Shown: positions 1 through 3,265 of the stretch, piece by piece
How the letters are laid out: the number at the start of each line of letters is the position of its first letter
Numbering within the stretch: the first letter of the stretch is position 1
Assembly (NCBI GenBank): GCA_002364245.1
Contig: DEXR01000032.1
Span: forward strand, 1-39,086
Direction of reading: 5' to 3'
Origin: Flavobacteriaceae bacterium UBA3179
Lineage (GTDB): Bacteria > Bacteroidota > Bacteroidia > Flavobacteriales > Flavobacteriaceae
DNA: 39,086 nucleotides
Translations under genes and position numbers: made by a program
The notes under the pieces: generated by a model
The model's input: the letters and a program-made list of their open reading frames with translations, nothing else
Told to the model about the DNA's origin: nothing
Databases searched by the model: none

Positions 1-1588
1 TCTGCGAGTCTTCACCAAAACGGTTTACATTCTTTTCGGCTCTTAAAATTGCAGATTCAGCCATATAAGCTTCAATTAATATATCTGAAGCAGCTAAAAG
101 TAGTTGCTGGTGTTCTTCCAGGTCCTGGCCAAATTTTTGAACCGCGCTTCCGGCTACCATTAAGAACACTTTTTTCAGTTTCTTAATCATATCCTTTTCT
201 TCAGCGAATAATTCGTTGAAATCTGGCTTGTCCATAGAGGGAATTCCTGTAAGTTCTTCACCTACTGCCTGTGCAGGTCCTAAAAGATCTACGTGGCCTT
301 TCATTGCCTTTTTAATCAACATTCCCACAGCCAACATTCGGTTAATTTCGTTGGTTCCTTCGTATATTCTGGCAATTCTGGCATCTCTCCAGGCAGATTC
401 CATAGGAGTATCTGCTGAAAAGCCCATACCGCCTAATACCTGTATGCCTTCGTCACTACAATTCTGAACATCTTCAGAACACGCAACTTTTAGAATAGAA
501 CATTCTATGGCATATTCCTCGAAAGTCTTTAATTCAGCATCTGAATGCGATTCTCCAGCTTCTAAACGAAGATTAATTCGGTCTTCAATATTTTTAGCAG
601 CGCGGTAACTTGCAGCTTCTCCAACCCAGGCTGAAGTAGCCATTTCTGCTAATTTAGATTTTATAGCACCAAACTTTGCAATTGGAGTTTTAAACTGAAC
701 TCTATCATTCGCATATTTTACAGCAACATCGGTTACTCGTCGTTGCGCTTCTAAAGATGCTGCAGCCAGTTTGATTCGACCTACGTTTAAAGCATTCATC
801 GCGATTTTAAATCCGTTTCCTCTTTCTGAAAGCATGTTCTCAACTGGCACTTTGGTATCGTTGAAAAACACTTGACGAGTAGAGGAGGAGTGGATGCCTA
901 ATTTTTTCTCTTCTTCGCCAAACGTAATTCCGTTTTCAGAATCATTTTCAACTATAAATCCTGTAATATATTTGTCGTCTTCAATACGGGCAAACACGAT
1001 AAATACATCTGCAAATCCCGCATTCGAGATCCACATTTTTTGACCGTTGATGATGTAGTTTTTTCCATCTTCAGAAAGAACGGCTTTTGTTTTTCCACTA
1101 TTGGCATCACTTCCTGCACCTGGTTCAGTAAGGCAATATGCGCCAAACCATTCACCAGTAGCTAATTTAGGAACGTACTTTTTCTTTTGTTCTTCAGTAC
1201 CATAAAGTGTAATTGGCATGGTACCAATACCTGTATGTGCTCCAAATGCAGTGGCGACAGAACCTGTAGCTCCAGAAATGTAATCACAAACCAACATTGT
1301 AGTTACGAAGCCCATTCCCAATCCGTCATACTCCTCAGGAACGGCAACACCCAGTAAGCCCATTTCACCAGCTTTACGCATAACTTCTTCTGTTAATGCG
1401 TAATTTTTCTTTTCAAATTCTTCTTTTTTCGGCCAGATTTCGCGATCTACAAATTCTTTAACCGAATCGCGCATCATTTTTTGTTCTTCGGAAAAATCTT
1501 CCGGCGTGAAAATAGCTTCTGCAGCTGTTTCTTTTACTAGAAACTGTCCGCCGCGAAGCAGATCATTATCTTTAGTTTTTGTATTCAT
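1..1588 (-). CDS. acyl-CoA dehydrogenase (C-terminus cut by window edge)
   Basis: This flavoprotein would catalyse the first, FAD-dependent step of fatty acid beta-oxidation, making trans-2-enoyl-CoA. The start is the ATG read from 1588, giving MNTKTKDNDLLRGGQF; 529 codons are visible before the window ends and no stop is reached. The N-terminal helical domain, a middle beta domain with YCLTEPGAGSDANSG and WISNAGFADVF, and the C-terminal flavin domain are all present in order. The motif IYEGTNEINR near residue 410 holds the expected catalytic glutamate. Sequence continuing well past this motif suggests the ~600-residue type with an extra C-terminal domain, as in very-long-chain enzymes. It is the last visible gene of the MarR/fadB-like/thiolase operon but is separated from the thiolase by the IVS-type cassette at 1602-2020. 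Substrate chain length cannot be read from the sequence. Confidence 0.95.
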   Translation of the reverse strand, partial: MNTKTKDNDLLRGGQFLVKETAAEAIFTPEDFSEEQKMMRDSVKEFVDREIWPKKEEFEKKNYALTEEVMRKAGEMGLLGVAVPEEYDGLGMGFVTTMLVCDYISGATGSVATAFGAHTGIGTMPITLYGTEEQKKKYVPKLATGEWFGAYCLTEPGAGSDANSGKTKAVLSEDGKNYIINGQKMWISNAGFADVFIVFARIEDDKYITGFIVENDSENGITFGEEEKKLGIHSSSTRQVFFNDTKVPVENMLSERGNGFKIAMNALNVGRIKLAAASLEAQRRVTDVAVKYANDRVQFKTPIAKFGAIKSKLAEMATSAWVGEAASYRAAKNIEDRINLRLEAGESHSDAELKTFEEYAIECSILKVACSEDVQNCSDEGIQVLGGMGFSADTPMESAWRDARIARIYEGTNEINRMLAVGMLIKKAMKGHVDLLGPAQAVGEELTGIPSMDKPDFNELFAEEKDMIKKLKKVFLMVAGSAVQKFGQDLEEHQQLLLAASDILIEAYMAESAILRAEKNVNRFGEDSQ

Positions 1589-1601: not shown

Positions 1602-1627
1602 TAGAATCAAGAGCCAAGATTCAAGAC
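1602..1627. repeat. Left inverted repeat of the IVS-type cassette
   Basis: After TAGA the arm reads as three heptamers, ATCAAGA, GCCAAGA and TTCAAGA, then C. It is the inverted counterpart of 1988-2020: the outer 10 bases (TAGAATCAAG) are identical and the inner 16 match at 14 positions. The right arm carries one extra heptamer. Confidence 0.85.
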
Positions 1628-1630
1628 TTA

Positions 1631-1981
1631 TTATGAAAGTCCTGAACGGAATCCTGAAATCATTTTTTGAATTTGTTTTATTTTATTTTCTGTTTCTTTA
1701 AATTTTTCTATTGGAATATAATTTTCATTAAAAGCTATTATTAATTGAGTTTCTAATTCAAAAGAAGACCCCAAACTATTATCAAGGTATTGTTTAAAAT
1801 GTTTATCTGTACTTTTACTTGAGCCTTCAGCAATATTTGAAGGAATAGAAACAGCACATCTATTCATTTGTGATACTAAACCAAACTTTTCATTAGTTGG
1901 AAAAGATTTTGTTATACTATAAACTTCAGAAACTAAATGCATACTTTCTATCCATATTTTCAATTTCTTAAAATTGTGCAT
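1631..1981 (-). CDS. Four-helix bundle protein, 23S rRNA IVS (S23) family
   Basis: This 116-residue protein belongs to the small four-helix-bundle family first found in intervening sequences of 23S rRNA genes and related to the accessory protein Avd of diversity-generating retroelements. Conserved family features are visible: FKKLKIW at the N-terminus, SFPTNEKFGL at about residues 26-35, QMNRCAVSIPSNIAEGSSK at about 38-56, and a later YLDNSLGSSFELETQ segment. Length is normal for the family. The ATG at 1981 lies 6 bp inside the right inverted repeat and the TAA at 1631 lies 3 bp inside the left one, so the repeats frame the gene tightly. No reverse transcriptase or rRNA is nearby. The family's biochemical function is unknown; a nucleic-acid-binding role is a common suggestion only. 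Confidence 0.9.
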   Translation of the reverse strand: MHNFKKLKIWIESMHLVSEVYSITKSFPTNEKFGLVSQMNRCAVSIPSNIAEGSSKSTDKHFKQYLDNSLGSSFELETQLIIAFNENYIPIEKFKETENKIKQIQKMISGFRSGLS

Positions 1982-1987
1982 AAAATT

Positions 1988-2020
1988 GTCTTGTGTCTTG
2001 GCTCTTATAACTTGATTCTA
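1988..2020. repeat. Right inverted repeat of the IVS-type cassette
   Basis: On the minus strand, after TAGA, the arm reads as four heptamers, ATCAAGT, TATAAGA, GCCAAGA and CACAAGA, then C. It pairs with 1602-1627 apart from one inserted heptamer and two mismatches. The outermost TAG doubles as the thiolase stop codon. Confidence 0.85.
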
Positions 2021-3208
2021 GTTTAAAAACTCATAGATTCCGGCGGCGCCTTGTCCTGTACCTACGCACATAGTGACCATACCATACTTACCTTGCATAT
2101 TGCGCTTTCTCATTTCATCGAAAAGTTGAACGGATAATTTACTACCGGTACAGCCAAGTGGGTGGCCTAGTGCAATGGCTCCTCCATTTACGTTTACTAT
2201 ATCTTTATTAAGACCTAGCTTTCTAATTACAGCAAGAGATTGAGAAGCGAATGCTTCATTTAATTCAACCAAATCTATTTGATCTAATTTCATTCCTGCT
2301 TGATCTAATGCTTTTGGAATTGCTTTAATAGGCCCAATTCCCATAATGCGAGGTTCAACTCCCACAGCGGCATAGTTTACCATACGGGCGATAGGTTCTA
2401 TATTTAATTCTTTCACCATTTCTTCGCTCATTACCATTGTAAAAGCAGCCCCATCACTCATTTGCGATGAGTTACCAGCTGTTACACTTCCGCCTTCTGC
2501 GAAAACGGGGCGAAGTTTAGATAAAGCTTCCATATTGGTGCCTTTCCTAGGTCCTTCGTCTTGTTTTACGGTATAAGTTTTTGTTTCTTTTTTTCCAGCA
2601 TCGTTTACAAATGTTTCTTCAACATCAATAGGGACAATCTGCTCTTGAAAACGGTTTTCTTCTTGTGCTTTCAAAGCTTTCATATGGCTGTTGAATGCAA
2701 ATTCATCTTGATCTTCACGAGAAACGTTGTATTCATTAGCAACAGCTTCTGCTGTTAAACCCATTCCCCAGTAATAGTCTTCGTGGCCTTGCTTAGCCAA
2801 TTTATAATCTGGAACTGGTTTGTAACCACCCATAGGGATGTAGCTCATGCTTTCGGCACCACCAGCGATGATACAATCTGCCATGCCACTTTGAATTTTA
2901 GCGGTAGCCATCGCAATCGTTTCTACACCTGAAGCACAGTATCTGTTTACTGTAACACCAGGGATATCTTCAGTTTTAAGTCCCATTAAGGAAATTAAAC
3001 GCCCCATATTTAGTCCTTGTTCGGCTTCGGGCATCGCATTACCGACAATTACATCGTCTATGCGTTTTTTGTCAAGTTGCGGAAGCTCATTCATCATATA
3101 TTGAATGGTTTCTGCAGCCAGTTCATCTGGTCTTTTAAAACGGAACAAGCCTCTAGGTGCTTTCCCTACTGCTGTTCTGTATGCTTTTACTATATATGCT
3201 GTTTTCAT
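2018..3208 (-). CDS. Acetyl-CoA C-acyltransferase (thiolase)
   Basis: This enzyme would perform the last step of beta-oxidation, cleaving 3-ketoacyl-CoA with CoA to release acetyl-CoA. At 396 residues it has the usual thiolase length. The nucleophilic cysteine is C91 in NRYCASGVETIAM. The general-base histidine is H349 in GGAIALGHPLGCTGSK, and the second catalytic cysteine is C381 in MCVGTGQGAAG. The NEAFA motif is present in the C-terminal half. It follows the dehydrogenase/hydratase fusion by 57 bp on the same strand, and the two gene products would act in sequence. Its TAG stop lies inside the inverted repeat of the downstream IVS-type cassette. The degradative rather than biosynthetic role rests on operon context. 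Confidence 0.96.
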   Translation of the reverse strand: MKTAYIVKAYRTAVGKAPRGLFRFKRPDELAAETIQYMMNELPQLDKKRIDDVIVGNAMPEAEQGLNMGRLISLMGLKTEDIPGVTVNRYCASGVETIAMATAKIQSGMADCIIAGGAESMSYIPMGGYKPVPDYKLAKQGHEDYYWGMGLTAEAVANEYNVSREDQDEFAFNSHMKALKAQEENRFQEQIVPIDVEETFVNDAGKKETKTYTVKQDEGPRKGTNMEALSKLRPVFAEGGSVTAGNSSQMSDGAAFTMVMSEEMVKELNIEPIARMVNYAAVGVEPRIMGIGPIKAIPKALDQAGMKLDQIDLVELNEAFASQSLAVIRKLGLNKDIVNVNGGAIALGHPLGCTGSKLSVQLFDEMRKRNMQGKYGMVTMCVGTGQGAAGIYEFLN

Positions 3209-3265
3209 ATTTTTTTATTTTGAATTATTAAATTTTAGTGCTTTAACTTTCTAATATTTAATAAT

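Follow-up and report, generated by a model that had tools for sequence, protein, structure and literature searches.

The stretch analysed here, a window of 39,086 nucleotides (positions 1 to 39,086 of contig DEXR01000032.1, Flavobacteriaceae bacterium UBA3179, assembly GCA_002364245.1), carries between two protein-coding genes of fatty acid metabolism a compact element composed of a single S23-family gene and two inverted arrays of 7-bp repeats (Table 1). The S23 family (PF05635) is named after insertions in ribosomal RNA (rRNA) genes, and the gene in the window scored 130.6 bits against PF05635 and 116.2 bits against TIGR02436, confirming the assignment to the intervening sequence (IVS)/S23 family made in a preliminary description of the letters alone. 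The left arm reads TAGA-ATCAAGA-GCCAAGA-TTCAAGA-C and the right arm, as its reverse complement, TAGA-ATCAAGT-TATAAGA-GCCAAGA-CACAAGA-C. The same description had them as inverted copies differing in length by one 7-base unit and lying within 6 bp of the gene; this is exactly what the sequence and the inverted-repeat listing give, with the arms paired as I1 (26 nt, 77%), or in a shifted register as I2 (19 nt, 89%), and distances to the gene of 3 and 6 bp. The right arm ends in three bases (2018-2020) that form the TAG stop codon of the thiolase gene and with which the upstream arm, read in the sense of the S23 gene, starts. The element lies between the thiolase (upstream) and the acyl-CoA dehydrogenase (downstream) and not in a 23S rRNA gene, and an Rfam scan of the window gave no match at the gathering score. 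An inverted repeat of this size is by itself no rarity in the window, for which 18 pairs spanning 19 nt or more were listed within 1 kb, so the case depends on the 7-bp register and on recurrence; these two features and the close bracketing of the gene are beyond chance. The own genome has two PF05635 genes, and the window element is also found in genome G002, with both arms identical and a 1-bp deletion in the gene.

The architecture of a PF05635 gene with inverted 7-bp arrays is recurrent across several bacterial phyla and is not CAAGA-specific. PF05635 matches were found in 28 of 40 genomes (the own genome and 39 relatives), with up to 16 per genome, and PF05635 genes in 233 members of a phylum-wide sample of 296 genomes, the own genome counted. 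The relatives set was built from the better matches, leaving out the weakest and most fragmentary, and comprised 95 merged elements, 94 of them distinct and 91 (from 27 genomes) with enough flanking sequence. In these 91 loci the autocorrelation of the flanks peaked at lags 7, 14 and 21 (z of 16.7, 12.1 and 9.4 upstream; 19.0, 12.8 and 7.9 downstream), neighbouring lags reaching at most 3.5 (lag 8); control stretches 500-900 bp away gave -3.6, -3.8 and 9.1 at the same lags, with lag 1 and multiples of 3 raised. Thirty phylum-wide loci behaved alike (9.4, 5.2 and 4.0 upstream; 11.4, 7.3 and 5.7 downstream), and the periodicity was also present in 79 named loci used of 80 (68 Bacteroidota-like and 11 other) and in 10 cyanobacterial plasmid loci, read from 20 records with a match, one of which (L450) is without clear repeats in its printed flanks. 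The 11 loci with non-Bacteroidota titles (Treponema, several Bacillota, an alphaproteobacterial metagenome-assembled genome, Patescibacteria and one plain 'bacterium') come from metagenome-assembled or uncultured records in which single labels may be wrong, while the cyanobacterial plasmids are complete records. Inspected by eye, most of 30 loci had tandem repeats of about 7 bp in both flanks; the two sets were reverse complements at any one locus and varied from locus to locus. The search of homologous flanks in relatives proposed in the preliminary description recovered heptamer arms, and the refuting outcome named there, homologous cassettes without heptamers at their flanks, did not occur; the CAAGA word itself proved local, most loci having a heptamer of their own, and was rejected as a signature of the element. 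Overall, the elements look like a widespread, largely undescribed intergenic class.

The two arms of a locus match each other, as seen when all downstream flanks, in reverse complement, were scored with each upstream flank. The own partner ranked first, alone or in a tie, in 33 of the 91 loci (about 1 expected), 13 of the 30 phylum loci, 30 of the 79 named loci and 8 of the 10 plasmid loci. Compared only with partners from the same genome, it outscored all others in 40 of 55 tests (8.0 expected). Altogether 131 of 199 elements exceeded the 95th percentile of swapped pairs; the window arm scored 28 with its own partner against 23 for the best of 90 other right arms. Of the 199 elements, 147 had an array in the left arm and 162 in the right and, aligned independently, both sides yielded T-D-A-G-W-W-N, with frequencies (left/right) of 0.79/0.75 for A and 0.87/0.89 for G and a register information of 2.49/2.55 bits, against column-permuted maxima of 1.86/1.99 in 12 runs each. 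In the 137 elements with an array on either side, agreement over the five variable columns summed to 2.86 for the arms of one locus, compared with 1.67 when arms were swapped. The heptamer positions other than the shared register are locus-specific and match between the arms of one locus. At matched positions the sense strand of the 5' arm had G 947 times and C 246 times. The CAAGA units of the window have the AG of the general register and lack the usual T, and a TNAG x3 pattern with at most one mismatch misses them.

Among 16 close pairs of elements the arms differed at 8.1% of sites and the spacers at 12.3%, with a mean synonymous difference of 39%, indicating that arms are conserved over short times. 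The arms of related proteins at unrelated sites were mostly unlike; arms may be made anew wherever the element settles, or the gene may move into hairpins that are already there. Two loci depart from the usual one arm per side, L268 having a complete heptamer hairpin both before and after the S23 gene and L293 one upstream of it.

Table 1. Features of the window and, in the last row, of genome G013
Feature	Position	Strand	Basis
S23/four-helix-bundle gene (PF05635, TIGR02436), 116 aa	1631..1981	-	profile scores, AlphaFold2, Foldseek
Upstream (5', gene sense) heptamer arm, TAGA + 4 units + C; first 3 bases are the thiolase stop TAG	1988..2020	-	sequence, repeat listing
Downstream (3') arm, inverted copy with 3 units, one unit shorter	1602..1627	+	sequence, repeat listing
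Thiolase (fadA-like), upstream of the element	2018..3208	-	PF00108, PF02803
Acyl-CoA dehydrogenase, downstream of the element, truncated where the window ends	2..1588	-	PF02771, PF00441, PF02770
fadB/fadA junction, 57 bp, possible decayed gene-less hairpin	3209..3265	-	by eye
Recurring sequences joined to arrays (G013)	L225:284-361, L227:302-383, L228:257-379, L234:251-334, L240:271-392		

The elements are placed at operon junctions. Using neighbour genes defined by a simple open reading frame (ORF) rule, plasmids excepted, both neighbours lay on the strand of the S23 gene in 83 of the 91 loci (both opposite in none), in 92 of 97 Bacteroidota-like loci (both opposite in one) and in 8 of 10 other loci. 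On the cyanobacterial plasmids both were co-strand in 7 of 10 and the S23 gene was antisense in 3 of 10, so that sense orientation is a strong tendency and no rule. In many loci the stop codon of the upstream gene is where the array starts, and this stop was TAG in 40 of 78 S23 loci versus 33 of 133 other genes (p 1.6e-4). The junctions are also variably occupied. The next gene upstream of the thiolase in the window encodes a 3-hydroxyacyl-CoA dehydrogenase/enoyl-CoA hydratase, and 30 fad loci (from 32 thiolase matches) were compared. The junction of the window, between fadA and the acyl-CoA dehydrogenase, was empty (4-30 bp) in 13 of the 30, and others held an S23 element or, by eye, a gene-less heptamer hairpin (for instance G001, G003 and G006; at fadB/fadA, G011, G019 and G021). 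The fadB/fadA gap was at most 18 bp in 14 of the 30 and held an S23 element in G001, G002, G005, G009, G013, G020 and G030. On a FastTree protein tree, examined without shuffled labels, occupancy required 12 changes at fadB/fadA (25 of 189 elements, in a query-enriched set) and 5 at the junction of the window (8 elements). Relatives with the same architecture bear out the earlier description of a self-contained unit with iterated arms between protein genes. Partly at odds with that description, the CAAGA version at the same junction also occurs in two other genera (G011, G012), with proteins that are each other's nearest on the tree, and the history may thus be partly vertical or site-faithful. 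At the fadB/fadA junction of G028 (L145) there is a different 132-bp filler with a small palindrome.

Arrays without a gene were associated with S23 genes at the genome level. In the relatives set, a pattern of four TNAG units at 7-base spacing (TNAG x4) gave 811 hits in the 28 genomes with S23 genes and 4 in the 12 without (rho 0.84), and at least five hits were found in 163 of 232 S23-positive versus 9 of 63 S23-less genomes of the phylum (295 genomes, the own genome left out, hits within one long array being counted repeatedly); at least one hit occurred in 22 of these 63. The genomes are not independent and the S23-less ones are often small, and among relatives of at least 2.7 Mb there were three S23-less genomes with one hit each. 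A control pattern read backward was also raised in array-rich genomes, so it provides no correction for periodicity and the comparison depends on S23-positive against S23-less genomes. In sampled intergenic DNA, windows with lag-7 periodicity per 10 kb amounted to 14.2 in G013 (16 PF05635 matches) and 1.7 in G002 (13 matches), as against 0.4 in G014 and 0 in G015, both without matches; other lags gave 0.4 to 0.9 in the same stretches. Forty solo arrays, hand-picked from the first listed places with known S23 arms (e.g. G009:C86, G163:C34) left out, were mostly unpaired, five having an inverted partner (score at least 20) within 50 bp. S23 genes were absent from about 2 kb around each of them, partly by this choice of arrays, and they showed no strand bias, the left gene lying on the strand of the array in 20 of 39. 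Besides, G047, G131, G141 and G205 have no PF05635 match and yet 27 to 113 TNAG x4 hits. Inverted arrays at L224:17471-17913 surround a degraded S23 gene (a weak PF05635 fragment at G013:C3:17683-17865), apparently a decaying element, and two sequences that recur close to the starts of contigs in G013 join different heptamer arrays directly, as if insertion sequences targeted the arrays.

To our knowledge, no function has been agreed upon for PF05635. The AlphaFold2 model of the window protein had a predicted local distance difference test (pLDDT) score of 97.1, and the best Foldseek match was 2gsc (Xcc0516 from Xanthomonas campestris), followed by 2rld, by Avd (4dwl) and by a diversity-generating retroelement (DGR) ribonucleoprotein (8ube); the last two had TM scores of 0.79 and 0.78 and a probability of 1.00, with E-values of only 0.04 and 0.07. 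The 2gsc structure is deposited as five chains, and Xcc0516 is described as five four-helix bundles in the title of a reference quoted in PMC3936711. The window protein scored 33.1 bits against PF22296 (cut-off 40) and 30.5 bits against the Avd equivalog NF033474 (cut-off 80). Substitution rates show purifying selection on the S23 protein, with dN/dS from 0.03 to about 0.2 in the closest pairs and a median of 0.17 for the 127 pairs, not independent of one another, whose dS was below 2; selection thus maintains the protein even as the sites it occupies are gained and lost. In phages, tblastn gave no match to the window protein.

The explanation that in our view best accommodates the architecture, the matching arms, the AG register, the junction placement, the presence/absence pattern, the solo-array association and the purifying selection is a self-contained element with a pentameric Avd-like protein recognising 7-nt arrays and with non-autonomous solo derivatives, to which we assign about an even chance. 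Such an element, one S23-family gene with two inverted 7-bp arrays, would fill an operon junction from the stop codon of the first gene almost to the start of the second and so keep the operon functional. The pentameric protein (Avd fold) may bind the arrays with one contact per 7-bp unit, since a pentamer of an RNA-handling fold together with arrays carrying one AG every 7 nt suggests unit-by-unit binding. Through the resulting complex the element could arise and spread, as could its derivatives that lack the gene, namely solo hairpins and solo arrays. Here we infer the binding, its target (DNA, single-stranded DNA or RNA) and the mobility. A bolder extension appears possible though rather doubtful: S23 proteins would be the autonomous drivers of a cross-phylum intergenic class, a ring of four-helix bundles that reads nucleic acid in 7-nt steps with a fixed AG, makes or copies matched inverted arrays at stop codons and, acting in trans, gives rise to the heptamer repeats known in bacteria for a long time without explanation, with the rRNA IVS as one branch and GxxExxY nucleases driving a parallel class with longer, CACAGAG-like repeats.

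Several observations weigh against the self-contained element. Clear arms were lacking in 32 of the 91 loci, which did not exceed the 95th percentile of swapped pairs. Across non-homologous sites arm and protein similarity were hardly related (rho 0.05, with 51 of 500 permutations as high), and like heptamers were confined to close proteins (mean 2.02-2.15 at similarity above 0.6, in 134 non-homologous pairs, versus about 1.6). Coevolution of protein and heptamer over all sites was accordingly rejected on the rho of 0.05 obtained with strict flank exclusion; in the heptamer comparison over the 91 loci, rho was -0.01 for pairs from different genomes and 0.16 (p 0.07) for pairs from the same genome, and a comparison of arm scores with protein similarity gave rho 0.09, with 3 of 500 permutations as high. 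Protein similarity above 0.8 occurred in 0 of 3,936 non-homologous-site pairs among the 91 loci, so no recent transposition was seen. Moreover, no insertion with an exact empty site was caught in a near-identical strain and no target duplication emerged, the empty junctions being too different for exact boundaries. The nine S23-less genomes with at least five array hits point the same way, as does the finding that S23 arms carried the solo heptamer of their genome clearly in only 3 of 7 genomes tried (clear in G163, G323 and G195, weak in G329 and absent in G152, G101 and G183, with 19 of 28 match rows scored). 

The preliminary description had supposed that the element might be mobilised by machinery encoded elsewhere, and none was found among the two families looked for, Y1 transposases (PF01797) and reverse transcriptases (RT; PF00078). 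Both are absent from G001, G006, G008 and other S23 carriers, and G004 has nine PF05635 matches and neither of them; a shared RT or Y1 mobiliser was therefore rejected for these two families, DDE transposases lying outside the test.

Among other explanations, the heptamer arrays and hairpins may be separate, pre-existing repeats into whose loops a bare S23 gene inserts, as IVS do in rRNA helices. The gene-less hairpins seen by eye at the same junctions, the arms lying within a few bases of the ORF in many loci, the mostly unlike arms of related proteins at unrelated sites and the whole hairpins beside the gene in L268 and L293 agree with this view. However, arrays were mostly absent from S23-less genomes, and the same arms with and without a gene at one site were seen in none of the 30 fad loci, and we regard it as rather unlikely. 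Quite a low probability is also given to an IVS-type RNA element, in which the arms would pair in the polycistronic mRNA, RNase III would excise the S23 segment and the insertion would be neutral. The Coxiella IVS, with a 28-bp stem formed by its terminal inverted repeats, is reported in a passage of PMC4990558 to be excised by RNase III; the sense orientation in most operons would suit such an element, and the single RNA from the window folded more stably than 99 of 100 shuffles (z -2.96). Despite this fold, selection for a stem such as the processed RNA stem proposed in the preliminary description found no support: arm mismatches showed no wobble excess (166 of G.U type, 204 of A.C type), and paired arm positions in 22 pairs, some poorly aligned, had changed mostly on one side (62 single changes, 5 compensatory double and 6 other double). 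An RNA stem under selection is thus not supported by the wobble and covariation tests, and the mostly unpaired state of the sampled solo arrays and the three antisense plasmid copies of ten also disagree with an IVS-type element.

TRAP binds (G/U)AG repeats, and the S23 protein might similarly bind NAG repeats in its own 5' leader, making it an ordinary autoregulated gene. The fixed-register AG upstream of the start codon and the function of an Avd relative in an RNA-protein complex (8ube) are compatible with such a role, which would nonetheless leave the downstream inverted array, the patchy presence and the solo arrays on either strand (20 of 39) unexplained and appears very improbable. Finally, the arms could be independent short tandem repeats functionally untied to the gene, heptamers being over-represented in many bacteria according to passages of PMC4692102; given the matching of own arms, the shared register and the genome-level association, this is extremely improbable.

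The self-contained element has partial likenesses among known systems. The 23S rRNA IVS with an S23 ORF in Coxiella and others is called a selfish element in a passage of PMC4990558 that quotes older ideas of mobility, and it shares with the present elements the protein family and an ORF between complementary ends. Unlike the IVS, the latter lie between protein genes, have locus-specific 7-bp arrays as arms, show no sign of RNA-stem selection, reach up to 16 divergent PF05635 matches per genome and have gene-less derivatives; despite the common gene and paired ends, the location outside rRNA and the lack of RNA-stem constraint in the tests set them apart. Cyanobacteria are known for tandem heptamer repeats among their short tandemly repeated repetitive sequences (STRR), which, like heptamer repeats in general, resemble the arrays in being intergenic tandem 7-mers. 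Heptamer repeats are described in Xanthomonas, the genus from which Xcc0516 originates, and in Nostoc, with inverted pairs noted in Xanthomonas (PMC4692102), and TAACTGA repeats in Beggiatoaceae, Cyanobacteria and Bacteroidetes (PMC4679880). The passages on these repeats in the two papers draw no link to S23 genes, 's23' and 'four helix' occur 0 times in the main texts, and a literature search by title and start of abstract, with subscription journals mostly outside it, did not return a link between S23 genes and heptamer arrays. Avd of DGRs has the same fold by Foldseek, with weak E-values; it differs in that several S23 carriers have no RVT_1 and the Avd equivalog score is below the cut-off. 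Miniature inverted-repeat transposable elements (MITEs) and the repetitive extragenic palindromes of REP-associated tyrosine transposases (REP/RAYT) also exist in gene-bearing and gene-less forms, but no Y1 protein is common to the S23 carriers and the S23 repeats vary by locus. Additionally, 23S_rRNA_IVP genes between cas genes are treated as a CRISPR-associated function in a part of PMC3936711. The orders cas6/S23/cas4 and cas10/S23/cmr3 also occur on cyanobacterial plasmids with adjoining 7-bp repeats (L451, L453, L458), where the arms point to insertion at an operon junction; this may explain 23S_rRNA_IVP as a CRISPR-linked family, and S23 genes in cas operons would become insertions rather than CRISPR parts. 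The heptamer arms would furthermore give the S23 family a testable ligand, make the role of the IVS-encoded S23 protein directly testable and suggest where the so far unexplained heptamer repeats of Bacteroidota, Cyanobacteria and perhaps Xanthomonas come from.

A parallel architecture was observed around GxxExxY genes (PF13366, a PD-(D/E)XK nuclease family), which occur in 10 of the 40 genomes of the relatives set and in 58 of 118 phylum genomes. Leaving fragments out, 21 loci were used in a first periodicity run, 50 in the repeat analysis and 49 for neighbours. Their arms exceeded the swapped 95th percentile in 33 of 50 loci and the own partner ranked first in 23 of 50. The repeats are not 7-periodic (lag-7 z of -0.9 and -1.3, with slight peaks at lags 2 and 9 to 12); they are rich in CACAG/CAGAG and form matched inverted arrays of CACAGAG/CGCAAAG-like units of about 9-12 bp (L033-L057, L352-L380). 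With heptamers at S23 genes and other repeats at GxxExxY genes, the repeat type goes with the gene family. As in the S23 elements, a co-directional setting prevailed, with both neighbours co-directional in 39 of 49 GxxExxY loci.
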